Under the pieces are notes generated by a model, which was not told the origin of the DNA, did not search any database, and was given only the letters and a program-made list of their open reading frames with translations. From the IMG/VR virus record IMGVR_UViG_3300028025_004780, positions 1 to 32,748 of that record: a DNA stretch of 32,748 nucleotides, one strand, 5' to 3'. Origin of the DNA: a virus. The translations under genes were made by a program, and so were the position numbers. Positions 1,474-30,488 of this stretch are shown piece after piece (position 1 is the stretch's first letter; the number at the start of each line of letters is the position of its first letter).

Positions 1474-1496
1474 TCTCCGCGACTAATCAAAATCAG

Positions 1497-1533
1497 ACCC
1501 CGTGCTAGAAATAGTGCGGGGTTTGGTTTTTTC
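1497..1533 (+). terminator. Rho-independent terminator
   Basis: A stem pairs ACCCCGTGCTA with TAGTGCGGGGT with two imperfect pairs around a GAAA loop, followed by a long T-rich run. It ends the first cassette. Confidence 0.85.
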
Positions 1534-1554
1534 TTTTTTTTTTGCAATGCGGGA

Positions 1555-1578
1555 GGCATGGAAAAACAGGGAACCGGG
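1555..1578 (-). repeat. Terminator-linked intergenic element, copy 1
   Basis: Read on the minus strand this is CCCGG, a variable CCCTG-containing centre, then TTTTTCCATGC. It matches the ten-copy consensus CCYGGG-N7-TTTTTCYATNCA and begins about 20 bases after the terminator. Confidence 0.75.
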
Positions 1579-1623
1579 TATTTTGGAAGCCTGGGGCCTG
1601 GAAGAAAAGCATAAGAACGCCGT

Positions 1624-1650
1624 TTAGCACTCGAAGAGGCAGAGTGCTAA
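1624..1650 (+). promoter_or_regulatory. Perfect CIRCE element (HrcA operator)
   Basis: TTAGCACTC at 1624-1632, nine spacer bases, then GAGTGCTAA at 1642-1650 form an exact 9-9-9 inverted repeat. This is the published CIRCE consensus bound by the heat-shock repressor HrcA upstream of groES/groEL and dnaK operons. All 18 arm positions match. It precedes a ribosome binding site and a 22-codon ORF at 1667, the usual CIRCE position between promoter and first gene. No convincing -35/-10 was found upstream. HrcA is not encoded in this window, so the host's protein would have to act. Confidence 0.9.
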
Positions 1651-1666
1651 TCAGGGAGATAACGAA

Positions 1667-1735
1667 ATGATAAACACCGAAGATAACAAAAAAGTTATGA
1701 TAATAAACTTGACAAATGTCGAAGGCGACCCCTAA
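1667..1735 (+). CDS. 22-aa leader peptide downstream of CIRCE
   Basis: ATG at 1667 follows AGGGAG (1653-1658) by 8 bases. It opens a 22-codon frame beginning MINTEDNKKV and ending NVEGDP, with stop TAA at 1733-1735. It is the first frame after the CIRCE operator. Its 3' part overlaps the TTGACA promoter of the next gene, so translation here could interfere with that promoter. It may be a small gene in its own right, a leader peptide, or the remnant of a longer captured gene. Coding status is uncertain. Confidence 0.45.
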   Translation: MINTEDNKKVMIINLTNVEGDP

Positions 1736-1738
1736 GAT
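1709..1738 (+). promoter_or_regulatory. Promoter for the gene at 1776
   Basis: TTGACA at 1709-1714 in the context ATAAACTTGACA, an 18-bp spacer, then TAAGAT at 1733-1738. The TTGACAAATGTC stretch is a GACA-AA-TGTC inverted pair overlapping the -35. Confidence 0.7.
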
Positions 1739-1775
1739 AGATAATGTAGTGAAGACAACGCTACAAGGAGATAAA

Positions 1776-2144
1776 ATGACTAAGAACGCATTGGTTATAA
1801 ACAGCGAACTCAAGGAAGACGACAAGTCTGCTTGGGTTGATGTTCAGATTAAAGCAATCGACATCGCCGAGAACAACAAGGAACTAGAAAACCTACAACG
1901 CGAAGTTGGTGGTTGGGTTCAGATGGTAGAACTATCACCGACTATTACTATGTGGTGCAACGAAGAGGGCAAACTAATTGGTCTGCCTCTCAACTACGCA
2001 GCAACTCGCATCTGGACTAAGGTCTTTGGATACACCGACGCCATCATGGGTCAGGTTGTATTCACAGGTGGTTCAGACGACGATGGCGAAACTCTTCCTC
2101 TATCAAAAGAAGACGAGCAAGTTATCTTGGGCTGGGTGAAGTAA
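1776..2144 (+). CDS. 122-aa protein, unknown function
   Basis: I start this gene at ATG 1776 because AAGGAG (1764-1769) lies 6 bases upstream. An in-frame ATG at 1716 sits inside the promoter and has no ribosome binding site. The product begins MTKNALVINS and has a conserved-looking core (WVQMVELSPTITMWCNEEG) followed by LNYAATRIW and an acidic C-terminus. This resembles, from memory, a DUF3846-type small phage protein whose core reads 'G-x-I-E-x-V-x-L-x-x-x-x-x-x-x-N-E-E-G-K'. I rate that match moderate. It is translationally coupled to the membrane protein at 2144. Confidence 0.8.
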   Translation: MTKNALVINSELKEDDKSAWVDVQIKAIDIAENNKELENLQREVGGWVQMVELSPTITMWCNEEGKLIGLPLNYAATRIWTKVFGYTDAIMGQVVFTGGSDDDGETLPLSKEDEQVILGWVK

Positions 2145-2323
2145 TGAGAATTATTCTTGTGCTACTCGGACTCGCTTGTTTCTTCGCTAACCTGCGGGTT
2201 GGGGACAAACTTGCCGAGGCAATCGTATTCGGTGGGGACACCAATTCACTCTGGGCATTGTTCGTGGCTTATCTTGCTGGAACTATTGGCTGTGTAATTG
2301 GGGTCATCTTCTACAAGAAGTAA
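2144..2323 (+). CDS. 59-aa two-helix membrane protein
   Basis: The start overlaps the upstream stop (TAATG at 2142-2146). The product begins MRIILVLLGLACFFAN, a first hydrophobic segment, and has a second one near residues 38-56 (LWALFVAYLAGTIGCVIGVIF) ending in YKK. The short loop holds DKLAEAIVFGGD. It is a candidate inner-membrane protein with both ends on the same side. Size and topology would suit a holin or superinfection-exclusion factor, but sequence alone does not decide. Confidence 0.75.
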   Translation: MRIILVLLGLACFFANLRVGDKLAEAIVFGGDTNSLWALFVAYLAGTIGCVIGVIFYKK

Positions 2324-2340
2324 TACCGAACTAAAAAGAG

Positions 2341-2376
2341 TCCCGCGTCTTTGGATGCGGGATTTCTTTTTATTTT
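2341..2376 (+). terminator. Rho-independent terminator
   Basis: TCCCGCGTC pairs with GATGCGGGA (one mismatch) across a TTTG loop and is followed by TTTCTTTTTATTTT. It ends the 1776-2323 unit. Confidence 0.85.
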
Positions 2377-3823: not shown

Positions 3824-3848
3824 CCCGGGCGGCAGGTTTTTCCATTCA
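3824..3848 (+). repeat. Terminator-linked intergenic element, copy 3
   Basis: CCCGGG, then CGGCAGG, then TTTTTCCATTCA. It lies 13 bases after the terminator and about 24 bases before the -10-like TATTGT of the gene at 3885. Confidence 0.8.
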
Positions 3849-3884
3849 TCGCGGTTTTGCTTCTGCTTCTGTTATTGTTGAGCC

Positions 3885-6145: not shown

Positions 6146-6170
6146 ACCAGGTGGCCAGTATTTCCATTCA
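6146..6170 (+). repeat. Terminator-linked intergenic element, copy 4
   Basis: ACCAGG, TGGCCAG, then TATTTCCATTCA. It starts 18 bases after the terminator. Confidence 0.7.
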
Positions 6171-6589: not shown

Positions 6590-6613
6590 TGAATGGAAAA
6601 GTCAGCCGCCGGG
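6590..6613 (-). repeat. Terminator-linked intergenic element, copy 5
   Basis: On the minus strand: CCCGGCGGCTGAC then TTTTCCATTCA, one base shorter in the T run than the consensus. It begins 10 bases after the terminator. Confidence 0.75.
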
Positions 6614-8959: not shown

Positions 8960-8984
8960 CCTGGGCTGCCACTTTTTCTATGCA
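8960..8984 (+). repeat. Terminator-linked intergenic element, copy 7
   Basis: CCTGGG, CTGCCAC, then TTTTTCTATGCA. It sits 2 bases after a stop codon and 4 bases before the -35 of the deacetylase-like gene. Confidence 0.85.
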
Positions 8985-8988
8985 ACAC

Positions 8989-9017: not shown

Positions 9018-9047
9018 TGAGGTATGACAAACGACGAAAGGACACAA

Positions 9048-10016
9048 ATGTCTAAAAAACTTACAGTCGCGTACAGCGACGACTACCTGAACTGGAATCT
9101 TGGTTCGGGTGATGGCTCGCACCCTACGAAACCTATCCGTGCGAAGATTGCTACCGAACACCTAGTCAATGAACTTGGTGCGGACAATGTGGAAATCATT
9201 GAACCTGAGTTCAGAGATGGGGACCGAGAAAAGATTGAATCTGTTCACGACACTGAGTATGTTGCTCAGGTAATCGATGATGGTATGTCTTTCGACTGGT
9301 CTGGAGAAAAGCCTGAGATGGGACACACCGCTGCTCAGATGTTTGCTGGCACTGCTCGCTTAGTTGAGAAGATGATTGCTGGAGAAACTCAGGTGGGCTT
9401 CAACCCGCAGGGAGCAAAGCACCACGCTCAGTACGACCACAGCGAGGGCTTCTGTGTATTCAATGACCACGCTTGGGCTGCTAAAGAGTTTGTGAAGAAT
9501 GGACTCAAGGTTGTCTACATTGACTGGGATGTCAATGCGGGCGATGGTGTTCAGAATCTGCTTGCGGATACTGACATACCAACCTTTAGTATCCACGGGC
9601 ACGGAATCTATCCCGTTCACTCGAACACTTGGTTGAGAGAGGCTGGGACCAAAGAGAACTATGTGTACATTGACGAAGAGAACCACTGGTACAACTACTG
9701 CCTACAGCGAGGACAAGGCGACGAGGCTTTCAAGTGGGCTATTGACTTGATTGCCAAAAAGGTTGCCGAGTACAAGCCTGATGTAATTCTGCTTGCTACT
9801 GGGGCAGATGGGCACGAGGGCGAGCACTGGGGTCTGAAGTACACATACGATGGCTACCACTATGCCGCTGGTGTGATTGCGGACCTAGCCAACAAGTATT
9901 CCGATGGGCGTGTGCTCATTGGTGGTGCTGGTGGCTATCAACCATACACTCATACACCGAGAGTATGGGCGAATGTGGTCAAAGACATCTATCAGCAGAC
10001 TCAAAAATCTGAGTAA
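9048..10016 (+). CDS. HDAC-family (arginase/deacetylase fold) protein with altered metal site
   Basis: The 322-aa product begins MSKKLTVAYS. I start at 9048 because GACGAAAGGA (9033-9042) fits that ATG, not the one at 9024. Class II HDAC/AcuC/acetylpolyamine-amidohydrolase hallmarks are present in order: active-site pair His125-His126 and GFCVFND, DWDVNAGDG (159-167), GADGHEG with Asp254, and GGAGGY with catalytic Tyr297. In the family the third motif reads D-x-D-x-H-H-G, whose first His binds zinc. Here it is Asn163, followed by Ala. Asp161 and Asp254 remain. The enzyme may use a weaker metal site, or may bind acetyl-lysine or acetyl-polyamine without cleaving it. It would act in the cytoplasm. 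Single-gene unit. Confidence 0.9.
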   Translation: MSKKLTVAYSDDYLNWNLGSGDGSHPTKPIRAKIATEHLVNELGADNVEIIEPEFRDGDREKIESVHDTEYVAQVIDDGMSFDWSGEKPEMGHTAAQMFAGTARLVEKMIAGETQVGFNPQGAKHHAQYDHSEGFCVFNDHAWAAKEFVKNGLKVVYIDWDVNAGDGVQNLLADTDIPTFSIHGHGIYPVHSNTWLREAGTKENYVYIDEENHWYNYCLQRGQGDEAFKWAIDLIAKKVAEYKPDVILLATGADGHEGEHWGLKYTYDGYHYAAGVIADLANKYSDGRVLIGGAGGYQPYTHTPRVWANVVKDIYQQTQKSE

Positions 10017-10030
10017 GTGATAGGATTGCG

Positions 10031-10068
10031 ATGCGTGGGGGACAAAAGTTCCTCACGCATTTCTTTTT
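10031..10068 (+). terminator. Rho-independent terminator
   Basis: ATGCGTG pairs with CACGCAT, with an inner GG-AC/GT-CC extension around AAAA, followed by TTCTTTTTT. Confidence 0.9.
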
Positions 10069-10093
10069 TGCATAGAAAATAAGATGACCCAGG
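10069..10093 (-). repeat. Terminator-linked intergenic element, copy 8
   Basis: On the minus strand: CCTGGG, TCATCTTA, then TTTTCTATGCA. It abuts the T run of the terminator and ends just before the ribosome binding site of the next gene. Confidence 0.75.
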
Positions 10094-10474: not shown

Positions 10475-10499
10475 CCTGGGTGGTCAGTTTTTCTATGCA
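10475..10499 (+). repeat. Terminator-linked intergenic element, copy 9
   Basis: CCTGGG, TGGTCAG, then TTTTTCTATGCA. Almost identical to copy 7 and likewise 3-4 bases before a TTGACT. Confidence 0.85.
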
Positions 10500-10502
10500 A
10501 AC

Positions 10503-10623: not shown

Positions 10624-11184
10624 ATGAAAGACAAAATGGATAAAATCAAGAAAGCCAATCAGTCATTACCGACTAATGTGGTTCGATTGTTCAGTTCACT
10701 CCCTGACTCAAGTGATAGGGACAACCTGATTCGCTCACTAAACCAAGTTGGCTGGACACAGAGCAGTATCGCTCGTTCAGTTGACCTGACTCGTGAGCGT
10801 GTGAGACAGATTTGTGTTATGCCGATGGAGCCAATGGCTACTACAGATTTCGTAGTCCCCGTTCCACCACAGCACGAAGTGAAAGCAAAGCGTGAGTTCA
10901 TCGAGCCTGACCCTGAGTCGTTGGCTCGTCTGCTGGAACTACAGCCTATGGCTAAGCAGGTTCGTTCGCACGCAACTCGTTTCCGAGCAGAGGCAGAAGA
11001 ATACACAGCCCTCATCGCGAAACTTCACGAGGAAGACGGTGTTACGCTATACCGACTGGCTAAGCGTCTGGGTGTAACTCACTCAGCGTTGAGATTCAGA
11101 CTGGCTCGCTATGGATACAAGTTATCCGACAGCGGGGTTAGTAAGGTCTATCAGCCCATCAACCCAAAGAACAGAGTTCGTTAG
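10624..11184 (+). CDS. Double helix-turn-helix DNA-binding protein
   Basis: The 186-aa product begins MKDKMDKIKKANQ. Residues 44-63 (GWTQSSIARSVDLTRERVRQI) form an HTH of sigma-region-4 type, whose 'LTRERVRQI' recognition helix is typical. Residues 140-160 (TLYRLAKRLGVTHSALRFRL) form a second HTH. A Pro/Glu-rich linker and a helical segment lie between. It is two genes upstream of the large terminase subunit, so it may be the small terminase subunit or a regulator. The gene at 14478 has the same double-HTH plan. No good ribosome site is seen, and TAATAG ends 7 bases before the ATG. Confidence 0.8.
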   Translation: MKDKMDKIKKANQSLPTNVVRLFSSLPDSSDRDNLIRSLNQVGWTQSSIARSVDLTRERVRQICVMPMEPMATTDFVVPVPPQHEVKAKREFIEPDPESLARLLELQPMAKQVRSHATRFRAEAEEYTALIAKLHEEDGVTLYRLAKRLGVTHSALRFRLARYGYKLSDSGVSKVYQPINPKNRVR

Positions 11185-11543: not shown

Positions 11544-11569
11544 CCTGGGTTGCCACTCTTTCCATACTC
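11544..11569 (+). repeat. Terminator-linked intergenic element, copy 10
   Basis: CCTGGG, TTGCCAC, then TCTTTCCATACT. It runs straight into TATAAT (11570-11575), the -10 of the terminase gene, and so covers the -35 region. Confidence 0.85.
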
Positions 11570-13008: not shown

Positions 13009-13572
13009 TTAGTTTCTCCAGATGGCGAGTTGCTCGTCGTCTAGTCCTACTAGCCAACGCACGAAGTGAGCGTTGCATAGAACTGCGTGGCTTCTCTTCT
13101 CACGCATCAGTGTGATTGCTTCTGCTGGTGAGTAGCCATCACGAATCAACACGAGTGCCATAACAATGCCACTGCGGTTGAGTCCTGCTTGGCAACGAAT
13201 CAGAACTTTCTTGCCGTTCTTCCAATCGCCGTGAGCCATCTTGACAATGTCAAGTAGGTCAATGGTTGGGTCGAAGTCAGACATCTGGCTGTCGTAGAAT
13301 CCAAAGCGTAGTTCCTTTACAAACCACTGAACTGGCTCAGCATCTGCGTAGAGAGTGTAGACAGAGTCAAACACTTCCTTGCTAATCTGGCGTGAGTTCT
13401 TTGGTGCGGAAGAGTGCCACTCATCTGAAGCCCAGTGGTCTAGTGTTCCACCTTGCCATAGGTTAGGTAGTGTCTCTGACCATAGGTCTCTTGGCATCAC
13501 AGGGTGAACAGGTCTGGTCAACTCTTCAAGACTTAGTGCCTTGCGGACTGCGTTCTCATTTGTAGTTGTCAT
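13009..13572 (-). CDS. Dual-specificity/tyrosine phosphatase-like protein
   Basis: The 187-aa product begins MTTTNENAVRKAL, with AAAGGAG 9 bases before its ATG on the minus strand. The phosphatase P-loop IRCQAGLNRSG (Cys127 nucleophile, Arg133) matches CX5R(S/T)G. The residue before Cys is Arg rather than the usual His, which may alter the pKa of the nucleophile. DSQMSDFDP (about residues 93-101) could carry the general acid Asp, and NLWQGG fits the family's N-terminal strand. It could dephosphorylate Tyr/Ser/Thr residues or RNA 5' ends in the host. It is the only minus-strand gene in the window, with its own promoter. Confidence 0.88.
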   Translation of the reverse strand: MTTTNENAVRKALSLEELTRPVHPVMPRDLWSETLPNLWQGGTLDHWASDEWHSSAPKNSRQISKEVFDSVYTLYADAEPVQWFVKELRFGFYDSQMSDFDPTIDLLDIVKMAHGDWKNGKKVLIRCQAGLNRSGIVMALVLIRDGYSPAEAITLMREKRSHAVLCNAHFVRWLVGLDDEQLAIWRN

Positions 13573-18713: not shown

Positions 18714-21700
18714 ATGTTTGATGCCTTCGGCAATCCACTTGATGACACCGACAATCTGGTAGCGGCTGGTAGCCAATGGACTGCTGGTGGCAACTCCGTA
18801 GCAGCCCGTCGTGCTCGTGTAAAACTCCAACGCCGTGACCGTTATGGTCGCTGGGCGGAGATGGGTGGTGGCATCTCGTTCTGGGGTCGTAAGGCTGACG
18901 GCTCTGTAGTTCGTATGATTGGTCGCTACATTGGACCTGCCCAACGCGAGGGTTATATGCGCGTCTACATTGCCAAGGATGGCGATGGATACAAGGCTGG
19001 CGTTTACGAAGTTCCTGGAACAGTAGCAACAGCAGCCAAGGCGATTATTAGCCTAGAAGATTTGGAAGAGGCTGGCGTTGATTTCGACATCAACGGAAAC
19101 CGCATTGGTCAAGTTCTTGACCGCGACATCGAACCAATTGCCACTATGTTCAAGGGTGCTCCTAACTCACTTGACAAGCAACTTGCTAATGATGAGCCAC
19201 TTACCGAGACCGAAAAGGCTACCCAAGAAAAGGCTCGCCTAAAGGCAACTCCCCATGTTTCTTACAATGTTGTTGATGAAAACGGCAACCTGATTGAACA
19301 GCCAGCAGCACCAGCAGCACCTCAGGCTCCAGCAAATCAAAATGTCAACCCTCTTTCCGATGCGATTGATAACGCTGGCGACACCCCTACTGGTTTCGGT
19401 TTCCGCAGACCTGACCTAGACACTTACATTTTGTCAGGCGATAGAGGTGACGCTGCCAGTGCTGGTATTGAGGCTACTGTTACTCGATTGCCTAGTGGAG
19501 AATACAACTCCAGCGTTTCCAATAATGGCAATGTCGCAAGTGAAACTTTTGATACTCCTCTAGAGGCTGTGAACCACGCTCACGCCAAAATTACTGAGGC
19601 TAGAAATAACAACATCGCTGGTCGCCCAGCAACTCCAGCAGAGGCTCCAATGCCAGCAGGGATAGTTGAGAACCGTAGCGAGGGTATGACCCTTTACCAA
19701 GCCACAAACGGTGACATCAATCCAATTCAGGTTGTCGCTATTGGTGGCGGAAAGGCTTGGCAAGTTACTAGAAATAAGCCAGGTCAGAACCCAGAAGTAC
19801 TTTCAACTCACTCCACCCGTGAAGACGGCGAGAATGAGGCTAAGGCAAGAATTGCTCAAGAAGCCGAAGAGCCACAGGCTGTCGCTACCCCTCCAGCACC
19901 GACTGTAACTCCCCCTAGCACCCCATCTACTCCAGCACCTGCTGGACCACAGCGACTTGCTTACGCAGATATCCCTGGAGACATACTTTCCGAGATTATT
20001 GCTCAGCGACTTGAAGACGGAGTCTTCTATCAAAAGCCAAATGGTGACTTCCACAGACACTCTGTAGTTAGAAACCCTGACGGCACATTCTCAGTAAGAA
20101 TTGCTGAACAAGAAGTCAAGAGATTTGTTGGTGGAGCAGAGGCTGAAATTGCTGCCATAGAACTAAATGCTGGAGATATCGCTTTTGCGCGTGGAATCGC
20201 TCCTCAAAGGTCAAACCCTCTCACCCAACGCTCGCAGTCAGTTATGCCTAGTGGCACTGCTCAAAATATTCAGCAGTGGATTGATTCTCAACTTGCTAGC
20301 AACGCTGACTTGATTGACGAATCAAGGCTCACCGATGATTCTTTGGACCCTTTTACTGGTGCTACCAGACTTGGTGGCAAGAATATTCTCGCCAACCTAA
20401 AAAACTACCGAGCACAACTAATCACTGGTCTAAAAGAGTCGGCACTAGATGGTAAGCAAGATGACTTTGCTTTCAAGTTCGCTGTGGCTAAGCGTGTTAC
20501 TGCTGTTATCAACGCTATGCACCAAAACCAAGTCGACGGCAACCCTGCTGAAAAAGGCTTGGAATTCAATATCAGTGCTAAGCAAGTAAATGACAGACTA
20601 GGTACTTTCCAAATTGTCCCTAATTCAGTCAAAACTGAAATTGGAACTCAAGGAATTGCTAACGGTAAAACTATCCTTTCATCATTCGACGCTCTGCTTG
20701 TTGCTAAAGATGGAAAACCTTACCTATTCAAATGGAACAATGGTTCGGTCGAGGCTTATCAAATAAACCCAGACGGCTCCTTGGGTCAAAGGGCTGGTGG
20801 ACTATCGGCATCTGACGCTCAAAGAAGAGGGTTCGGTAACGGAGAAAATTACCCTACTAATATGCAGGTTCCAGGTATGGCTGGCTCAATTAGTACATCT
20901 CAACAATTTCAAGCGCTAGGTCTAGCATCTGGATTTACACTTCTAAACCGTTGGGTAGCAACAAGAATTGGTGCTAGATACTCTCACAGTGGCAATCTTA
21001 TGCCTAACGGAAACTTCTACAGCAAGACCCTAAGCCCTGATATGCGTGACAACGACAGAACTCAGGCTGATAAGGCTGTCCACCAAAACAACCCTAATGG
21101 CACAATCTTCAAGGTAATGAAAGCCTTGCGCTGGATTGATGGCGAGTACAAGCCTCTAGACCTAGCAAACCAAAGAGATTATGGTAGCGGTTGGCTAAAG
21201 CGTCTAACTATTAACAACAGCGGTGGAGCACCTGACAACAAGTCTAAATTGGACAAGTTCACCTATGGACTTGCTGCTGAACTTAGAAATGTAAAGCGCC
21301 ACTACGGTCAACTTTCAGATGCTGAAAAGGCTAGAACACTGCCTCTAATTCCAGAAATCTTCCGCGACCACATCACTGGCGAGGATGACTGGAGCAAGTG
21401 GGATGTTCAATACAACCTACTTAGCACCGTCTACGCAGACGGTAAGACCAAAGATGAAGTAGTTCAGATGATGAACGACATCAAGGCTGGTAGAACAGAA
21501 CTTGACAGACTGTTCCCTAGAGTAAAGGGAAACAACCTAGATGAAACCAAGTTTGATGACCTGCTAAATAAAATTATTGCCACTGATTTTAGACCAGAAG
21601 ACAACAACTACACCAAGCCTCAGGAAATGAGAGCAGACGCTGTTCGTATGATGGACATCCCGTTTGCTGGACACGCCAATTTCTCTAGATGGACAGTGCC

Positions 21701-24700
21701 GACTGGAGTTAGACAAGTAGAAAACTTCTTGCCTTTCAACCCACGCAGAGCGCAACCTAATAATCCTGCTGGCTGGACAGAAGAACCTGTAAATCTTGCT
21801 CAAAAATTCTCTGCCGAGCAGTTGCTGTCAGCATTGCGAGAAAGCCTAGTATCAAACCAAGGCAGAAGTGCTTCTCTACCTTTTGGCGATAGAGGAGATG
21901 AGCAGGGCGATGTAAACCCTGACGCTATCTTCAAGGCGCTTGAGCAACAGGGTCAAGATGCCCACCAAATGCTTGCTGAAATCTACGATGAAATTATTGG
22001 AGACCCAGCAAACCCTAACCAAACAGCACTAAACGCTGCTCGTTCTGACCTAGGGAACCTAAACTCAGCAATCTCCGCTCTCAGGGCAGAAATTGGCGAA
22101 CTCGATGAGCCTACCGCTTTCGATAACATCGGTGGAAGATTCATCCCAGACGACGCAATTCTTCACGCAGATGTTGTCAAGCGTCAAGAAGAGAATGTCG
22201 GTGGCAACCCAGCCCTAGACCTACAGCCATTGTCTTCAAACAACGCTAACTACCGATTTGAAGACGGTGGAATTGCGATTAGTGGTACCCCATACTCTCC
22301 TCAAATTCCAAACCGCAGATTCTACATCGATGGCACTGCCGACAACCCTAAACTGATTGCCAGAAACTTCTCCCCTGCTGGACTAGAGAACGCCCTGACC
22401 AACGCTATAGGCAACAAAAAGAGAACTGTAAAACTACAGTTCGCTAATGGCTCTCAAGTTGATGTACCACTAGAGGCAATTCGTGATGCTCTACAGTACC
22501 AAGGTGTAGACATCAATAGTGTTTTGGCGTCTAGAGATGACCTAAGAGTGCCACCAAGACGACACAGTGCTGTGAAAGTTGTGGAGTCTCAGGATGGAGA
22601 GTCTTACGACATCTGGGAAGAGCACAACAATGGTGCTCGTCTAGTATCTGGTCAAGAACTTGGACACGGTAGTAGGAAAAGAAACTCAGCCAATGAAATT
22701 ACTCAATACAACTACGATGTTGAGAGAGTCAACGACCCTACTGACCCAGCAACCGCAACTAAAGTTGCAAAACTTGTCAAGGTTGTAAGAAACGCAGATG
22801 GTAAGTATGAGGTTTGGGTTTCCAAACTATCTGACCAGTACATGGGTGACTTTAGCGAGAGACCTGCTGACGGCGTTTATGACAGTTTTGAGGCTGCTAA
22901 TTTTGACATTAGCACTCACATTAAGAGGCAACACAACTTAGAGAACACGCCTGGAATTCTAAACAACCGCAGAGCAATAGACCCAGGACAGAACGCAGCG
23001 TTCACTGAGATTGGCGTACTGAACGACGACAACCCTGAAGCCGACTTTGACGGTATCACCATAAGAAACCCTCGTAATGGTCAGGGTGGCGAGCGTAGAG
23101 TTTATGGAGTTATAGATACAAGAATTCCAGACGCAGTCAGAAGTACTGGTGGCGGTAAGTACATAATGGTCGACACTAGCGACACCGTAGAGCAAGTTGC
23201 TTCTATAGGTAGAGATGCTGATGGTGTTGAAGTTGCTTACCCAATTTACACAGTTGTCCCCGATGGAACTACTGGAAAGTTCATTCTGAGAACCTATGGA
23301 ATGAACGGTGTCCCTCGTAACACTAGAATTTTCAACTCTAAAGATGAAGCATCTCTTTGGGGTAAGCACTTCGCTGTAAATAGTGGTTCTGTTTCTAGAG
23401 TTCCGACCTTTGAATCGGCTCAGACTTACGCTGAGGCTATTAGAGCAATTCCAGTTCAATACAATGCTCCGACTATCTCCGAAGATAACTCTTCCAAGAC
23501 TGCTACAGCAGAATTTGTCGGTAAGGGTGGAGAACTTCTACAGTTAGTCACCAATGTCAAAAAGGGTGCACACCCTACTTGGAGAAACGCTGGTTCGCCA
23601 GATAACGCTTGGGTACACGCTACCGTCTCTCTTAGAAGACAAGGTGCAAGCGGAACTGAAGAATCTTTCATAACTGCAAAAATTACTAGAAGAAACTCAC
23701 GCAGTTGGATTGTAAATGTATCTTCTGATGGAAATGCAGATGGCAGCGCTATTTTTGGTCGCGCTGGACAGACTAGATATTTTGACACTAAAACTGAAGC
23801 GCACGAGTACCTATTCGGACCTAATGGAATTAAGAAGATTTTGGGTCTTGGAGAAGATGACAAGGTTGCCCCAGATGTTCAGATTCTAGACCCAGCGCAA
23901 CAAAGAAGAAACGCTGCTCAGGCGGCAGCCGAGGCAGAGCGTCTAAGAATTATTGAAATAAGAAGAGTTGCCGCAGAGCGTGTAGAGGCAGAACGCTTGG
24001 CCGCTGAGATGGCTGCTGCTCAAAATGCTGGAGATGTAGATACTCTAATTCCTGGCAGTATGATGACCGATGAAGAATTCAATGCTTTCCTTGCTGAAAG
24101 AGGAGCGGTTGAGAACCTACTCAATGCCACTAACCTAGGTCCTATTACGCAAATGGGTGGCGGTAGGGGCGTCAATGACTCCCTAGTTTACCAACTACCT
24201 GACGGTAGAAAGTTCAAAGTTAAGCCTGGTAGCGAGGAAAAGGGTCGTAATGAGTCCGCTATGCACGCTCTTTACAGACTGTTCGGCATCCAAGTAACCG
24301 AGGGTAGATTGGGTCTTGTCCAAAGAGGTAATGACCAAAAAATCCTACTTGCAGACGCTTTCCAAGAAAATATTATCCCTAGAAACTCTAGATGGACAAA
24401 TATTTTTGATTCAGAGTTTAATAACCCAGAGTATGCTCAGGCAATTGCCGATATGCACGAAGGTCTAATGATTGACGCTCTTGTAGAGCAGTGGGACCTA
24501 CAGGTTAACGAAAACTCAGGTAATGCTTTTATTGTTAGAGACGCCAATGGAATTCTTCGTGGAGTTCGATGCGACCCTGGTAGCGGTGGTCTCTACAACG
24601 CAGCAGGAAATTCTAGAATTGGTAGCAACGCCCATTTCAATAGAAATGCTCTAGATTTCATGGTTAGAGACCGCAACGCACTCTTTGGCGATTTCATGGC

Positions 24701-27700
24701 TACAGGCAGAATTAATGGAGAGAATCAGCCAGGTCACATTAACCGCGGACTTACTGTAGATGCTCTAAAGGCAATTGCTAGAAGAACTATTCTTCCTCTA
24801 AATGACCGAAGAATTGACGCTCTAGTTGACTCAATCATAGTTGACCCTATCGACAACGCGGCTATGAAGGCTGGTCTAAAGCGTCGCCGTCTTGAGATTC
24901 TAGAGTACATGGGCATTGACCCTAATGAGTCTGCTCCTCAGGGTACTTCGGCTAGACTGCCAGAACGCGCTCCAGGACTTACTCCGCCAAACTTGGCAGA
25001 CAACGGTTATGAGTACGGAGCAACTCTACCTAACGGTAAGAGACAAGTTCGCTTTGCTGGAAGAGTTAGACCTGACGGTGTATTTATTCCTAACGACTGG
25101 TCAGCCATTCCTCCTAGAGTGAAGTCTGAACTAAAGGCTGGAGACATTGTTCCAGAGTACTTACCGTTTATGACTAAGGATGTGCCAGCCGCTGGTATTC
25201 CTAGAGATGCTCAGGGCAATCTTCTTGAGAGTCTTCCTGACTTCATTGACGCTAATGGAATCCAAAGGCACAGCCCGTTTGGTGTTGTCTCTCTTATGGT
25301 TCGCAAGCGTAAGGCTGATGGAACTTACGAGTACCTATTTGTACAGCCTGGCTCTGCTGACCCGACTGCTAAAGCACACTATGCTAACAAACTGGCTCCA
25401 CTTCACTACGGTAAGAACAGCGTAGATGAAGCAGACCCTACTCCTCAGCAAATGATGTTGGACCACTTGGGCAATTCCGTTGACCCTATCTCTACTCGTT
25501 CATTTGAGATTGACATTCCTGGCTCTGTGGGCAAGCATAAAGTTATAGTTGCCGATATTGGTGACCAAGACCTAGACATTAGCACTGCGCAGCGCAATGG
25601 CAAAGTCGGTACTTCTTACTGGAGAAGAGGCGCTCGCCTACAAGAAGCCCAGCGTTCTTACTGGAACCAGTTCGACGGACAAACTGCAACTGTAGTTGGG
25701 AAACTAAACGACCTAGAGCAAAACTGGACTGCATCACCTAGCAATGAACCTGCTGGCGATACCGATGTTCCAGAGGCTGGAAACGGTGGCGGACCAATCA
25801 ACCCTCCTACCCCTCCAAATGATGGAGAAGGCAACGCTGGAGTACCTACCCCGTCTGACAGTGGTAGAGATGCTGATGGCTACAGAGCGTTCCGTCAATT
25901 TGGTATGAGAGATGCTGATGGCAATGTAGTAATCACAGGTGTCCAGCAGATTGAAGTTGGCGACTACAGAGACGGAAGCCTAAAGGCAAAAACTACCAGT
26001 GGAACAACCCTTGGGACCATCAAACCTATCGGTAATGGAAACTGGGTTGCTACATATATGCCAGATGAAATCACTGGTCGTGATGGTGCTAACAGAAACG
26101 GAAATGCTCTAAAGGGTATATTCACTTCAAAGGAAGACGCTGACTCTTGGCTATCAAAGCAAATCCACGACAGATTCAATGCTGGTGGACCACGCAAGCC
26201 AATCAGTGGCAACGGAGAGTACAACCCTAATGCCGCATCTCTAGTTGAAATCAAAAAGGGTTTCCTCAACGAGACTACTACTGCCCAAACAGACTACGCT
26301 AACCGCCTAATTGAGCAGAAGCGTGCTACTCCACAGCAAAGAGCACTATTCCGTGCCATTTTGTCTCAAGAGAAGCCAACCACTGGTGAAGTTGGGTACA
26401 TCATCAACCAACTTAGAGATGCTGAAGACCGCGACCCAGCAGAAATTGCTGACTCTCGTGCTATTAGAGAGGCTGGAAACAGTGCTCCTATCAACAGCAG
26501 TAGCCTAGACAATGTTGGTGCCGTAGCAGGTGCAAGAGCAATCCGTGCTGACCGTTTGCGTGTTGGACAAAGAATCCTTGGAAAAGTAAACGCAAATGTT
26601 GTGTTCACCGCTCCTGGCGACAACAACACTATCAATGTCGGTGTAGTCGGAGACGATGGAGCATTGCGCGTCTACCGAGTTGGAAACAATAGCGTTATCG
26701 CCATTGGAAACGAAACTGTAGAACCAGACAACAGAGTTATTCCACCACACCCTGAGGTAGTGAGGCGTCGTGAGCAAGCCCGTCTTGTTCTAGACCGCGT
26801 AAAGGCTCAGTACCCTAACCACCGTGAGTTGCCTAACGGAGACCTAATTGTGGGTCAGCGTGAGCACAGACAAGCAAATGGTGAGGTATTCCGCTACGAG
26901 GCTATAGTTCACAAAATGAACTCAGACGAGTTTGTGAGTTATGTTCGTAAGCAAAAACTAGACGCTCACGGAAACCCTACTGGTCAAGCCGTGTCTGCCT
27001 ACTTCACCGAACCTGCTCACTCTCCTAAGGTAACTCTTGGTCGATTGGGCCGTGAAGTTCTGCCTGTAGTAAACGCTCAGAACCCAGCAAATGGATTCAA
27101 CCAGCGTGGAGACAGGTCGTCTGAAATCCTAGACCCAGCAACTGGTCAAATGCTTCCATCAATCTTTGTACCAGACCAAAATATCCAATACATTGGTGAC
27201 ACTGGTATTCAGAAGACTGGAAACGCTGCTAAAGATGCTCTTATTTCTTATGTTCAGAACCTCGTTGCTAGAGGAGTGGCTCAACCAGATATTATCAACC
27301 AAGTTCTAGGTGGAAACCAAAACATCTTTACTAGAAACCAACTTGATGACATCATTGACCGCCTTGAGGCTAACCGCAGTTACCCTGGCGTAAATGCTAT
27401 TCCTTATGTTTCTAAAGACGACAGAACTATTGTCCGTGTTGGTGACCGAGTCAAGCACTATGACGCATTTGGTCAGCCAATTGAAGACAGAAACGGTAAC
27501 CACCGTGAGGGAACCGTTGTTCGTCGTCAGCCTTATGTTCTAAACGCTAAGCGTCAAGGAAACTACGAGTATTCAGACCAACTATTTGTCCAGTGGGATT
27601 TGGATGACAGACCGCACCAAGCAGCGGCTCGTCGTCTAGAAGTTATTCGTCGTGGAGATGGTTCAGCACCAGTTCCAGCAGTTCAGGGTCCAAACGATGG

Positions 27701-30488
27701 TGGAAACAACAACCCACCTATCGACCCTATGCCTCTACCCGGTCAGCAACCAGTAGCACCTGCCCCAGCAAACGATGCCGACAATAATGCTATTGCTCTG
27801 ACAAACGCAGTTAATGCTAGAGCACAAGTTAGGGACTTCTTAGATAATCAAGGTGGACAACTTGTTAACTTCCCTGGTGGAAGATTCCTTGCGTTCACCC
27901 ACCCAGATGTACCTGAAAATGGAGGCAGAGTTGCTGACATTCAAGTACTAGAAAACGGTCAATTTAGAGTAAGTAATTGGCTAAGAGACCCTAATAACCC
28001 TAATAATGTGTTTGCTCAGGAAACTTATGACACTAGAGAAGAAGCATTAGTAGCAGCAGACAAAATCTTTAGAGATTTTGCTGTCCAAAGGAATGCTGGT
28101 CAGCCACCAGCACGGGAAACTGACAGAACTAATTTCCCTCCAGCCAGCCCTACAGACCCAGGCAACAGCAACCCTACTCTGATTAGAGCAGACGAGATTC
28201 CTCAGGCTCAAAATCCTGCTGGACCTGTCCCTAACCCTGCTCCAGCCAACTCGGATGCAAACAACACACTCATAAATCTCCCTAGAGGCAATGACCGCAG
28301 AGGAGAGGCTCCAGGTGGAGTTAGAAACCTTGGAGACGCTCAGTTCGTTCAGTCGTTCTGGGATGACGATTTCCCTGCAAATCGCTACAATGTTGTGAGA
28401 ACCCCAGAGGGCACTAAGTTTGTCGCTGCTAATGAAGAGAACCTAGGCGCTGAAGCATTTATCAAAGTCGAGAGAACTCCTAACGGTGGCTTTAGAGCAA
28501 TTGACCCTAGAGCACTTAACGATGCCGACAAGATTCTCTACGATGGTGATGACCGCCGTGTAGCAGAAGCGATTGCTATCAACAGCATGAATGGTAACGA
28601 AGCCCTAAACGCAGAAATCTTGCGTCAAAAGGGTGAAGAAGATGCTGGCAGAAACCCTAACGCTACTCCGCCAGCAACACCTAACGAGACTGACTCTGTT
28701 GTTAGCAAAACTATCGGCGGTAAAGAAATTATCCGTCGAGGCAGACCTAACGGAGAGCAACTCTTCATCTACGAGATGAATGAAGTTGGAAGAGTAGAAG
28801 TTGCTCCAAACGGCAAGTTCTTGGCAATAGATGTATTCAATGGCGACCAGAACGAGTATGACAACTTGGCTGATGCTATTGCAGATGTCGAAGGAAAAAT
28901 TGAAACTTACGCTCAAGGTGGATTGCTAGACACTCCAGATGATGGCAATGATTCAGGTGGCGGAAACGGTGGAACTCCACCTGCCCCAAGCACCCCACCA
29001 GCGGGACCTCTTGATGGGCTGCCTGTTGCGGAAGACACCCCAGCAAATGTCAACGGCGTAGTGGTCAGAAACGGCGAGCAAAAGTTCAATGTTAGTGCTG
29101 ACGGCGAACCTGAAGAACTTCGTGAAATAGGACAACCTAATCCTAATTCTAGGCTTGTGACAGGTAACGGTGAGCCGTATTTTGAGAACGAAGACGGAAC
29201 CGTTTGGCCAGCAAACTGGACCACTATGATAGATAACCTACCTCCAGTGGCTCCATTTGTAGCACCAGAGCCTCAGGCACCTCAGGCACCTCAGGCAGTA
29301 CCTGCTCAGGCACCAAGACTGCCTAGACCAAGAGTGAATCCAGTTCAACCTGGTGAGCGTTTTGTTAGATACCACGCTGGCAGAGATGGCAACTACTGGG
29401 ACATCATTGACCGCAAGAGTCGTAGGAAGATTGGTCGAGCAGACACAATCGAGAAAGCCAATGAAATGGCTGCTGGTCTTCGTGGTCTAGATGGTAAGTT
29501 GATTGACTATGACACTCCTGTAGCACCAAGACAGCCTAGACAAGTTGACGCTAAATTCCCAAGACCTAGCGGTTACAGAAGAACCGCTGTCGGTCAAGGC
29601 TATTTCTTAGAGAACACAAACGACCCTAATGGTCCAGTGGCAAGAGTCGAGTATGATGCAGATTCTTCTACTTGGGTCGGAAACCTTTACGCTAATAAAG
29701 CAGATGCCGAGGCTAGAAGAGCACCTATCGGTGAATTCTCTGCTAAGTCTCAAAACGATGCTGAAAGCAAGGCTAACGGTGCTGTTCAAGAAGAACTAGA
29801 CAGAAGAAACCCACCTGCTCCAGCCCCAGCAGCACCCGCTCCTGTGGCTCAGCCAGCAGTATCTAACCACCAGCGCACTGACCTAGGTCCAGATATGTTC
29901 TCTCTCCACGATGGAAACAAGGAGTACGGAATTGCTGAAAAGGGTACTGACGGTAAATGGACTGCTCGTATTCACGAAAACCCTAGAGATGCCCTAAGCA
30001 ATAGGAATCCTATCGCCACTGGTTCTTTTGACACACCTGAAGAAGCGGAAGCAGCGATGCGTCAAGCAATTGCTGACCGACAGGCTCCGCAAGCAGCAAA
30101 CATTTTGCAGTGGCAGTCTGGTTCTGACGGTAAGTCTTATCTAGGTCTAGATGGAGTTCCTGGAATTGATGCCAATAACGCACCTGTTTATGGCATAAGC
30201 CCTGGACCTTTCGGTGGTTGGATTGTTGCTGGCTGGTCATCTAAGGCAGATAAAGATGCTGGACTTCCACCAGTGGCAGTGACAAACCACGCTAACGAGC
30301 AAGATGCTAAAGATTCTGCTATGGGATACGCTCAACAAGCAATTGACTCTATGGCACCGCAGCAACCTGCTACTCCACCAGCACCTGCACCTGCTGCTCC
30401 ACCTGCTCCTGCTCCCGCACCGAGACCAGCCCCTAGGAGAAGACAACAACAACAGTGGCAAGGTGAAACACCACCTTGGCTAGCGTAG
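18714..30488 (+). CDS. Giant 3924-residue multidomain protein, probable virion or injected protein
   Basis: AGGAGA lies 8-13 bases before ATG 18714. Visible parts, by residue: RRDRYGRWAEMGG motif (about 40-52); Pro/Ala linkers (about 199-215, 386-410, 2345-2385, 2982-3030, 3130-3190, 3510-3545, 3880-3917); helical region with GWLKRLTINN and DHITGEDDWSKW (about 800-1100); Ala/Glu coiled coil (1733-1774); HipA/PI-kinase-like domain (about 1805-2070; Lys1837, Glu1847, Asp1928, Asn1937, Asp1954); Nudix-like segment (about 2186-2338); SH3/KOW-like segment (about 2902-2979); and about fifteen divergent strand-rich modules ending in a 'D-T-x-E-E-A' helix. No signal peptide or membrane helix was seen. 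A head-associated protein ejected into the host is the best guess. Confidence 0.9.
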   Translation: MFDAFGNPLDDTDNLVAAGSQWTAGGNSVAARRARVKLQRRDRYGRWAEMGGGISFWGRKADGSVVRMIGRYIGPAQREGYMRVYIAKDGDGYKAGVYEVPGTVATAAKAIISLEDLEEAGVDFDINGNRIGQVLDRDIEPIATMFKGAPNSLDKQLANDEPLTETEKATQEKARLKATPHVSYNVVDENGNLIEQPAAPAAPQAPANQNVNPLSDAIDNAGDTPTGFGFRRPDLDTYILSGDRGDAASAGIEATVTRLPSGEYNSSVSNNGNVASETFDTPLEAVNHAHAKITEARNNNIAGRPATPAEAPMPAGIVENRSEGMTLYQATNGDINPIQVVAIGGGKAWQVTRNKPGQNPEVLSTHSTREDGENEAKARIAQEAEEPQAVATPPAPTVTPPSTPSTPAPAGPQRLAYADIPGDILSEIIAQRLEDGVFYQKPNGDFHRHSVVRNPDGTFSVRIAEQEVKRFVGGAEAEIAAIELNAGDIAFARGIAPQRSNPLTQRSQSVMPSGTAQNIQQWIDSQLASNADLIDESRLTDDSLDPFTGATRLGGKNILANLKNYRAQLITGLKESALDGKQDDFAFKFAVAKRVTAVINAMHQNQVDGNPAEKGLEFNISAKQVNDRLGTFQIVPNSVKTEIGTQGIANGKTILSSFDALLVAKDGKPYLFKWNNGSVEAYQINPDGSLGQRAGGLSASDAQRRGFGNGENYPTNMQVPGMAGSISTSQQFQALGLASGFTLLNRWVATRIGARYSHSGNLMPNGNFYSKTLSPDMRDNDRTQADKAVHQNNPNGTIFKVMKALRWIDGEYKPLDLANQRDYGSGWLKRLTINNSGGAPDNKSKLDKFTYGLAAELRNVKRHYGQLSDAEKARTLPLIPEIFRDHITGEDDWSKWDVQYNLLSTVYADGKTKDEVVQMMNDIKAGRTELDRLFPRVKGNNLDETKFDDLLNKIIATDFRPEDNNYTKPQEMRADAVRMMDIPFAGHANFSRWTVPTGVRQVENFLPFNPRRAQPNNPAGWTEEPVNLAQKFSAEQLLSALRESLVSNQGRSASLPFGDRGDEQGDVNPDAIFKALEQQGQDAHQMLAEIYDEIIGDPANPNQTALNAARSDLGNLNSAISALRAEIGELDEPTAFDNIGGRFIPDDAILHADVVKRQEENVGGNPALDLQPLSSNNANYRFEDGGIAISGTPYSPQIPNRRFYIDGTADNPKLIARNFSPAGLENALTNAIGNKKRTVKLQFANGSQVDVPLEAIRDALQYQGVDINSVLASRDDLRVPPRRHSAVKVVESQDGESYDIWEEHNNGARLVSGQELGHGSRKRNSANEITQYNYDVERVNDPTDPATATKVAKLVKVVRNADGKYEVWVSKLSDQYMGDFSERPADGVYDSFEAANFDISTHIKRQHNLENTPGILNNRRAIDPGQNAAFTEIGVLNDDNPEADFDGITIRNPRNGQGGERRVYGVIDTRIPDAVRSTGGGKYIMVDTSDTVEQVASIGRDADGVEVAYPIYTVVPDGTTGKFILRTYGMNGVPRNTRIFNSKDEASLWGKHFAVNSGSVSRVPTFESAQTYAEAIRAIPVQYNAPTISEDNSSKTATAEFVGKGGELLQLVTNVKKGAHPTWRNAGSPDNAWVHATVSLRRQGASGTEESFITAKITRRNSRSWIVNVSSDGNADGSAIFGRAGQTRYFDTKTEAHEYLFGPNGIKKILGLGEDDKVAPDVQILDPAQQRRNAAQAAAEAERLRIIEIRRVAAERVEAERLAAEMAAAQNAGDVDTLIPGSMMTDEEFNAFLAERGAVENLLNATNLGPITQMGGGRGVNDSLVYQLPDGRKFKVKPGSEEKGRNESAMHALYRLFGIQVTEGRLGLVQRGNDQKILLADAFQENIIPRNSRWTNIFDSEFNNPEYAQAIADMHEGLMIDALVEQWDLQVNENSGNAFIVRDANGILRGVRCDPGSGGLYNAAGNSRIGSNAHFNRNALDFMVRDRNALFGDFMATGRINGENQPGHINRGLTVDALKAIARRTILPLNDRRIDALVDSIIVDPIDNAAMKAGLKRRRLEILEYMGIDPNESAPQGTSARLPERAPGLTPPNLADNGYEYGATLPNGKRQVRFAGRVRPDGVFIPNDWSAIPPRVKSELKAGDIVPEYLPFMTKDVPAAGIPRDAQGNLLESLPDFIDANGIQRHSPFGVVSLMVRKRKADGTYEYLFVQPGSADPTAKAHYANKLAPLHYGKNSVDEADPTPQQMMLDHLGNSVDPISTRSFEIDIPGSVGKHKVIVADIGDQDLDISTAQRNGKVGTSYWRRGARLQEAQRSYWNQFDGQTATVVGKLNDLEQNWTASPSNEPAGDTDVPEAGNGGGPINPPTPPNDGEGNAGVPTPSDSGRDADGYRAFRQFGMRDADGNVVITGVQQIEVGDYRDGSLKAKTTSGTTLGTIKPIGNGNWVATYMPDEITGRDGANRNGNALKGIFTSKEDADSWLSKQIHDRFNAGGPRKPISGNGEYNPNAASLVEIKKGFLNETTTAQTDYANRLIEQKRATPQQRALFRAILSQEKPTTGEVGYIINQLRDAEDRDPAEIADSRAIREAGNSAPINSSSLDNVGAVAGARAIRADRLRVGQRILGKVNANVVFTAPGDNNTINVGVVGDDGALRVYRVGNNSVIAIGNETVEPDNRVIPPHPEVVRRREQARLVLDRVKAQYPNHRELPNGDLIVGQREHRQANGEVFRYEAIVHKMNSDEFVSYVRKQKLDAHGNPTGQAVSAYFTEPAHSPKVTLGRLGREVLPVVNAQNPANGFNQRGDRSSEILDPATGQMLPSIFVPDQNIQYIGDTGIQKTGNAAKDALISYVQNLVARGVAQPDIINQVLGGNQNIFTRNQLDDIIDRLEANRSYPGVNAIPYVSKDDRTIVRVGDRVKHYDAFGQPIEDRNGNHREGTVVRRQPYVLNAKRQGNYEYSDQLFVQWDLDDRPHQAAARRLEVIRRGDGSAPVPAVQGPNDGGNNNPPIDPMPLPGQQPVAPAPANDADNNAIALTNAVNARAQVRDFLDNQGGQLVNFPGGRFLAFTHPDVPENGGRVADIQVLENGQFRVSNWLRDPNNPNNVFAQETYDTREEALVAADKIFRDFAVQRNAGQPPARETDRTNFPPASPTDPGNSNPTLIRADEIPQAQNPAGPVPNPAPANSDANNTLINLPRGNDRRGEAPGGVRNLGDAQFVQSFWDDDFPANRYNVVRTPEGTKFVAANEENLGAEAFIKVERTPNGGFRAIDPRALNDADKILYDGDDRRVAEAIAINSMNGNEALNAEILRQKGEEDAGRNPNATPPATPNETDSVVSKTIGGKEIIRRGRPNGEQLFIYEMNEVGRVEVAPNGKFLAIDVFNGDQNEYDNLADAIADVEGKIETYAQGGLLDTPDDGNDSGGGNGGTPPAPSTPPAGPLDGLPVAEDTPANVNGVVVRNGEQKFNVSADGEPEELREIGQPNPNSRLVTGNGEPYFENEDGTVWPANWTTMIDNLPPVAPFVAPEPQAPQAPQAVPAQAPRLPRPRVNPVQPGERFVRYHAGRDGNYWDIIDRKSRRKIGRADTIEKANEMAAGLRGLDGKLIDYDTPVAPRQPRQVDAKFPRPSGYRRTAVGQGYFLENTNDPNGPVARVEYDADSSTWVGNLYANKADAEARRAPIGEFSAKSQNDAESKANGAVQEELDRRNPPAPAPAAPAPVAQPAVSNHQRTDLGPDMFSLHDGNKEYGIAEKGTDGKWTARIHENPRDALSNRNPIATGSFDTPEEAEAAMRQAIADRQAPQAANILQWQSGSDGKSYLGLDGVPGIDANNAPVYGISPGPFGGWIVAGWSSKADKDAGLPPVAVTNHANEQDAKDSAMGYAQQAIDSMAPQQPATPPAPAPAAPPAPAPAPRPAPRRRQQQQWQGETPPWLA

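Follow-up and report, generated by a model that had tools for sequence, protein, structure and literature searches.

Excess copies of the lac operator titrate LacI, a case of repressor titration by multicopy operators, and HSP20 chaperones of the kind discussed below are found in cyanophages and other aquatic phages. We know of no phage shown to titrate the heat-shock repressor HrcA by operator copies, and the literature that we searched held no report of HrcA or of its operator CIRCE in phages, nor of operator decoys. In bacteria, where CIRCE precedes groESL and dnaK, the activity of HrcA depends on GroE, as stated by the titration model first proposed for Bacillus subtilis (PMC8533110). GroEL, in turn, may be required for phage heads, an example being T4, which carries its own co-chaperonin gp31 (PMC3012670).

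Here, we report a perfect CIRCE palindrome in a tailed phage represented by a 32,748-bp IMG/VR record with a terminase and a portal (hereafter the window, meaning the whole stretch of DNA that was analyzed). A pattern scan of the window found TTAGCACTC-GAAGAGGCA-GAGTGCTAA at 1624-1650, which agrees with the CIRCE consensus TTAGCACTC-N9-GAGTGCTAA at 18/18 arm positions and in its 9-base spacer, just as the initial annotation had claimed. No second match at up to three mismatches exists in the window, the chance expectation at this threshold being 0.03 per shuffled window, and the site is the top inverted repeat of the first 22 kb (spacer of 3-20 bases, arms of at least 8). Neither a chaperone gene nor an HrcA gene or domain was found in the window. 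The site and its neighbors are the following.

1489-1540, plus strand: intrinsic terminator, with a hairpin at 1489-1530 and a T-run, that ends the small-gene operon lying upstream; the strongest terminator-like site of the region.
1624-1650, no strand assigned: perfect CIRCE palindrome with arms at 1624-1632 and 1642-1650 and spacer at 1633-1641; 0 mismatches, arms invariant in four phages.
1667-1735, plus strand: 22-codon open reading frame (ORF) of the initial annotation, not conserved; contains the promoter.
1709-1738, plus strand: sigma70-like promoter (TTGACA-N18-TAAGAT) that serves the DUF3846 unit; the -10 hexamer is invariant, and the -35 hexamer nearly so, in the related phages L098, L106 and L107.
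1776-2144, plus strand: DUF3846 gene, 122 aa, first in the downstream unit (Pfam PF12957, E = 1.8e-19; phrog_3777, E = 1.1e-21).
2144-2323, plus strand: small hydrophobic protein of 59 aa, recognized from its sequence, overlapping the DUF3846 stop codon; no Pfam match.
2338-2365, plus strand: predicted terminator closing the two-gene unit.

Upstream, a run of small genes ends at the intrinsic terminator, whose hairpin is also present in L098 and L106, while L107 has a different hairpin with a T-run; this terminator sets CIRCE, which follows in non-coding DNA, apart from upstream transcription. Downstream, the end of CIRCE and the -35 hexamer of the conserved promoter are 58 bp apart, and the site therefore lies neither inside the DUF3846 transcript nor over its promoter. 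The classical placement of an operator, in which it overlaps the promoter or the leader of the gene under its control, is not what we see in the window, nor is control of a chaperone operon, since DUF3846 and a small membrane protein are encoded downstream. It had been proposed that the site is followed by a ribosome binding site, the 22-codon ORF and then the gene at 1776, and that release of HrcA switches on both ORF and gene. The gene at 1776 does lie downstream, but conservation of the ORF fails (L098 has AAG in place of its ATG, and L106 lacks the ORF altogether) and the conserved promoter intervenes; a switch of this kind does not fit a promoter placed so far past the site, unlike the arrangement in groE and dnaK leaders. 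An intergenic repeat (approximately CCTGGGNNGCCAGTTTTTCCATNCA) occurs in the window in both orientations after terminators, at 3824-3849, 6147-6170, 8960-8985, 10475-10500 and 11544-11569, and inverted copies of similar sequence lie at about 1545-1580, at 6590-6613 and at 10067-10093, one of them between the terminator and CIRCE.

HrcA might nevertheless act as a wired-in sensor, bound to CIRCE and repressing the promoter at 1709-1738 or an unrecognized one nearby, so that DUF3846 and the small membrane protein would come on upon a shortage of chaperonin or loss of HrcA. We consider this possible and rank it second. In each of the four phages of the window clade the site is followed by the DUF3846 gene, which makes up a tidy unit with its promoter and terminator, and such control would explain why the site is upstream of the promoter in this clade; many hsp20 phages also have CIRCE 19-28 bp before hsp20, which is the classical arrangement. 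However, simple occlusion is not expected when the sole good promoter is this far beyond the site, no recognized promoter overlaps CIRCE in the window, and in two other members of the phage family (L015 and L069, described below) the genes neighboring CIRCE are unrelated to DUF3846.

The three related phages, which come from other metagenomes, carry CIRCE at the equivalent place before the DUF3846 gene, whose product is 92-100% identical in close relatives. Across the four phages all 18 arm columns are invariant, against 135/236 (57%) of the flanking non-coding columns and 1/9 spacer columns; were arm columns to behave like flank columns, this would have a probability of 0.572^18, or about 4e-5. 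The initial annotation had suggested looking for CIRCE at the matching place in relatives, where it is indeed present, and had named loss of the arms beside conserved flanks as evidence against an operator; the opposite pattern is observed. In L106, the spacer TCCGCCTTC is the reverse complement of the GAAGNGGNA type found in other clade members. The loop is thus inverted while the arms are intact, with neither its sequence nor its orientation preserved, which is what one would expect if the site is a symmetric DNA operator.

This pattern bears on two further explanations. One is that the site is an RNA or DNA hairpin (a terminator, processing or recombination site) whose likeness to CIRCE is incidental, which we consider unlikely. 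In L069, just downstream of a stop codon, the arms reach 12 bp and a T-rich tract comes next, and in some other phage contigs (L050, L054) CIRCE lies within longer hairpins. Yet no T-run follows the site on either strand in the window, L098, L106, L107 or L015, and the nine arm pairs never vary, hence show no compensatory change, which leaves a role as RNA hairpin unsupported; an Rfam search of the window returned no RNA family. The other explanation, a functionless fragment of a host groE promoter captured and kept by chance, we hold to be quite improbable. CIRCE is common in Actinomycetota, the predicted host phylum, and in the window and L107 the sequence TCAGGGAGATAACGAAATG after the site looks like a leader that includes a ribosome binding site. 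Against this, the arms stay invariant while the flanks drift, the ATG and leader are not retained in L098 and L106, and CIRCE has three placements in the phage family, with unrelated flanks and no groES remnant.

Two of these placements are provided by L015 and L069, which belong to the same family as the window (terminase 83% identical) and have perfect CIRCE at other loci. The L015 site is about 490 bp past the end of the terminase gene, at a distance of about 29 bp upstream of a -35 hexamer, while in L069, a contig of 125,776 bp, CIRCE is found at about 61,190, 22 kb before the terminase at 83,419. The family sites share no common flanking sequence. Perfect CIRCE arose at least three times in this phage family, or moved, and its three placements beside unrelated genes are those of a site that is free to move and requires no adjacent gene, as would befit a repressor sponge. 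Sites are either perfect or absent: no degenerate CIRCE was found in non-coding DNA of the family records searched, and a scan for near-CIRCE that tolerated one mismatch and R/Y gave no match in 29 further records of the family. Matches with two mismatches in L232 and L233 fall in coding repeats of a coiled-coil-like protein and were treated as chance. At L069:590-616, 57 bp after the L069 CIRCE, there is a loxP-like palindrome, TAACTTCG-N11-CGAAGTTA.

In the viral collection as a whole, perfect CIRCE is present in 103 contigs, corresponding to 64 contexts after merging similar flanks, whereas two control palindromes, likewise with 18 fixed bases, are found in 0 and 8 contigs; the rarity of such palindromes also argues against an incidental hairpin. 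The site adjoins hsp20, groES or htpG in about one third of the contigs, part of which are probably prophages or host DNA. Counted per contig rather than once per lineage, CIRCE adjoining chaperone genes lies at a median of 28-30 bp from the start codon (for hsp20, 18/21 within 60 bp, median 28), while CIRCE without a chaperone gene lies inside ORFs in 6/72 cases, as compared with 191/310 random positions, and within 60 bp of a start codon in 33%, as compared with 29% of random intergenic positions. This suggests that in viral contigs lacking an adjacent chaperone gene the position of CIRCE relative to a gene is often unimportant. A phage group of 12 related contigs, L001, L043 and L075 among them, has a perfect CIRCE with spacer TGCTTCGGG exactly 28 bp before hsp20, as in the textbook. 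Five other phage contigs (L030, L036, L089, L096 and L025) carry intergenic arrays in which 2-3 copies of CIRCE stand together with other operator-like palindromes, which are Rex-like (TTGTGAAAAAATTCACAA), cre-like (ATGAAACGTTTCAT), CtsR-like (GTCAAAAATAGTCAAA) or parS-like (TGTTTCACGTGAAACA), or read GTTAGA-N5-TCTAAC.

The window terminase shares 78% identity with its counterpart in Actinomycetia phage DSL-LC01, which comes from a lake metagenome and has a predicted Actinomycetia host (PMC10611076), and the nearest relatives of the portal are DSL-LC01 and Microbacterium phages. From these relatives of the terminase and portal we infer the host, which is predicted to be a freshwater actinobacterium; a search for the phage terminase in bacterial genome contigs gave no match, and isolated phages have no DNA similarity to window 1560-2144. 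In Actinomycetota, CIRCE is found at up to two mismatches in 281/396 genomes, compared with 4 for the reversed pattern, and HrcA is present in 26/40 small genomes of the phylum. A perfect CIRCE directly before a GroES gene of the KPLED type gave six matches in the bacterial scan, none of them recognizably from a freshwater actinobacterium. A phage-encoded repressor might bind the operator in place of host HrcA, and the family does have helix-turn-helix proteins, such as the one at window 10624-11184; but with no HrcA domain and a single site in the window, and with convergence required to produce the exact CIRCE and the exact spacer, we regard this as the least probable of the explanations, and very improbable in itself.

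The window has other features of note. It encodes a histone-deacetylase-family protein at 9024-10016 (PF00850, E = 6.9e-46), a dual-specificity-phosphatase-like protein at 13009-13572 (PF00782, E = 5.3e-11), on the minus strand amid plus-strand genes, and, after the portal region, a single ORF of 3,924 residues at 18714-30488 without a Pfam match. The motifs ACCGA and GCCGA are strongly one-sided over its whole length (130 on the plus strand vs 41 on the minus strand).

The 18/18 match, the invariant arms, the two placements elsewhere in the family and a host phylum rich in CIRCE and HrcA make 1624-1650 very likely a real HrcA operator. Judging by sequence, we take it to be a genuine operator of the host HrcA that selection has kept in an actinophage. 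For its role, the reading we rank first, and hold to be somewhat short of probable, is a repressor sponge, in which replicating phage genomes would titrate host HrcA and derepress groESL; like control of a phage promoter, it requires that HrcA bind the site. Replication of the phage genome would create many copies of perfect CIRCE, which would compete with the one or few host copies for a limited pool of HrcA; once HrcA is drawn off, host groESL would be derepressed, and the additional chaperonin would assist the folding of phage structural proteins. A decoy for HrcA had been among the alternatives of the initial annotation and, as a candidate mechanism, suits the anatomy better than the cassette switch.

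We favor the sponge on indirect grounds, namely the perfect consensus, the free and mobile location of the site away from core promoters, the lack of a common regulated gene, and what other family members carry. Two large members encode GroES (G006, 57210-57485, L278; G007, 91520-91795, L279) and have no CIRCE at up to two mismatches, and the CIRCE-bearing L069 phage (G021) encodes HSP20, 27 kb from its CIRCE. Phages of the window family thus seem to invest in chaperones, in some cases through a gene and, as we suggest, in others through an operator. Several observations weigh against a sponge. Raised GroE would also help HrcA to fold, opposing derepression (PMC8533110). With abundant HrcA, one site in each genome would be few. 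A promoter lies downstream of the site in every case, an arrangement also compatible with regulation from a distance, and in the window clade CIRCE is retained beside the same gene, DUF3846. In addition, the host is predicted, and GroES and HSP20 in relatives are known from a handful of genomes, several of them incomplete.

Boxes resembling operators of other host repressors are found elsewhere in the family. Perfect DtxR boxes, TTAGGTTAGGCTAACCTAA and TTAGGTTAGCCTAACCTAA, lie 85 bp apart in non-coding DNA after the terminase gene of L224, L225, L227 and L228, before the gene corresponding to window 14478; in L225, these DtxR/IdeR-type iron boxes are at 13176-13194 and 13261-13279. Exact matches to the paired box (TTAGGTTAGSCTAACCTAA / TTAGGTTAGNCTAACCTAA) occur only in these four contigs of the viral collection, which is not above a control palindrome (8 contigs), so that they are noteworthy only for being confined to one phage family, as pairs. 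SOS boxes (TCGAACANNTGTTCGA) have 12 matches in the non-coding DNA of the family, compared with 0 for the reversed control. After the terminase, non-coding DNA holds two SOS-type boxes, TCGAACACTTGTTCGA, twice each in L200, L206 and L212 (at about 13510 and 13540), and TCGAACAGATGTTCGA, in L216 (13051) and L219; in L176 it holds TTAGGTAAGCCTTACCTAA together with a Fur-like ATTGATAATCATTATCAAT; near the CIRCE locus, SOS-type boxes are present in intergenic DNA of L106 (2825) and L107 (2958 and 6160). From their consensus sequences, we take the family boxes to be presumptive LexA, DtxR and Fur sites. The HspR/HAIR operator has no perfect site in the family and one site with a single mismatch, in L155. 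Long tandem low-complexity stretches also occur in the non-coding DNA after the terminase, at L225:12380-13100 (TAGCTCAGCTCA) and L200:12770-13070 (AGGCTCAGGCACAGGC).

A broader and more doubtful idea is that phages accumulate, in non-coding DNA, perfect operators for the master repressors of their hosts, as sponges that would derepress selected host regulons during infection. It would cover HrcA, LexA and DtxR here and, in other phages, HrcA together with Rex-, LexA-, CtsR-, cre- or parS-like sites, some with 2-3 CIRCE copies. If the sponge is real, a phage would reprogram host stress physiology by a 27-bp DNA site and no protein, the host regulons targeted by phages would be predictable from operators in phage genomes, and the known GroEL dependence of many phages would be tied to a regulatory shortcut. 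If instead HrcA controls a phage promoter, chaperone demand would be directly linked to phage gene expression.

CIRCE as an element is already known; its phage carrier, position and company are new. The window site is like the CIRCE of bacterial groESL and dnaK in all 18 arm bases and the 9-base spacer, and the predicted host phylum has both the element and HrcA, but it differs in being phage-borne, outside a leader or core promoter, and without a chaperone gene downstream. Closer in carrier are the 12 related IMG/VR contigs with hsp20 (e.g., L001 and L043), where a perfect CIRCE is likewise found in a phage; there it stands about 28 bp before the chaperone start, whereas in the window it is 125 bp before a DUF3846 gene that has its own promoter in between. 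The mechanism proposed for the window CIRCE is the same as titration of LacI by lac operators. With its gp31, T4 adapts the GroEL system of its host (PMC3012670), and two members of the window family likewise encode GroES; T4, however, supplies a protein, whereas the window phage would use a DNA site to influence the expression of host groE.
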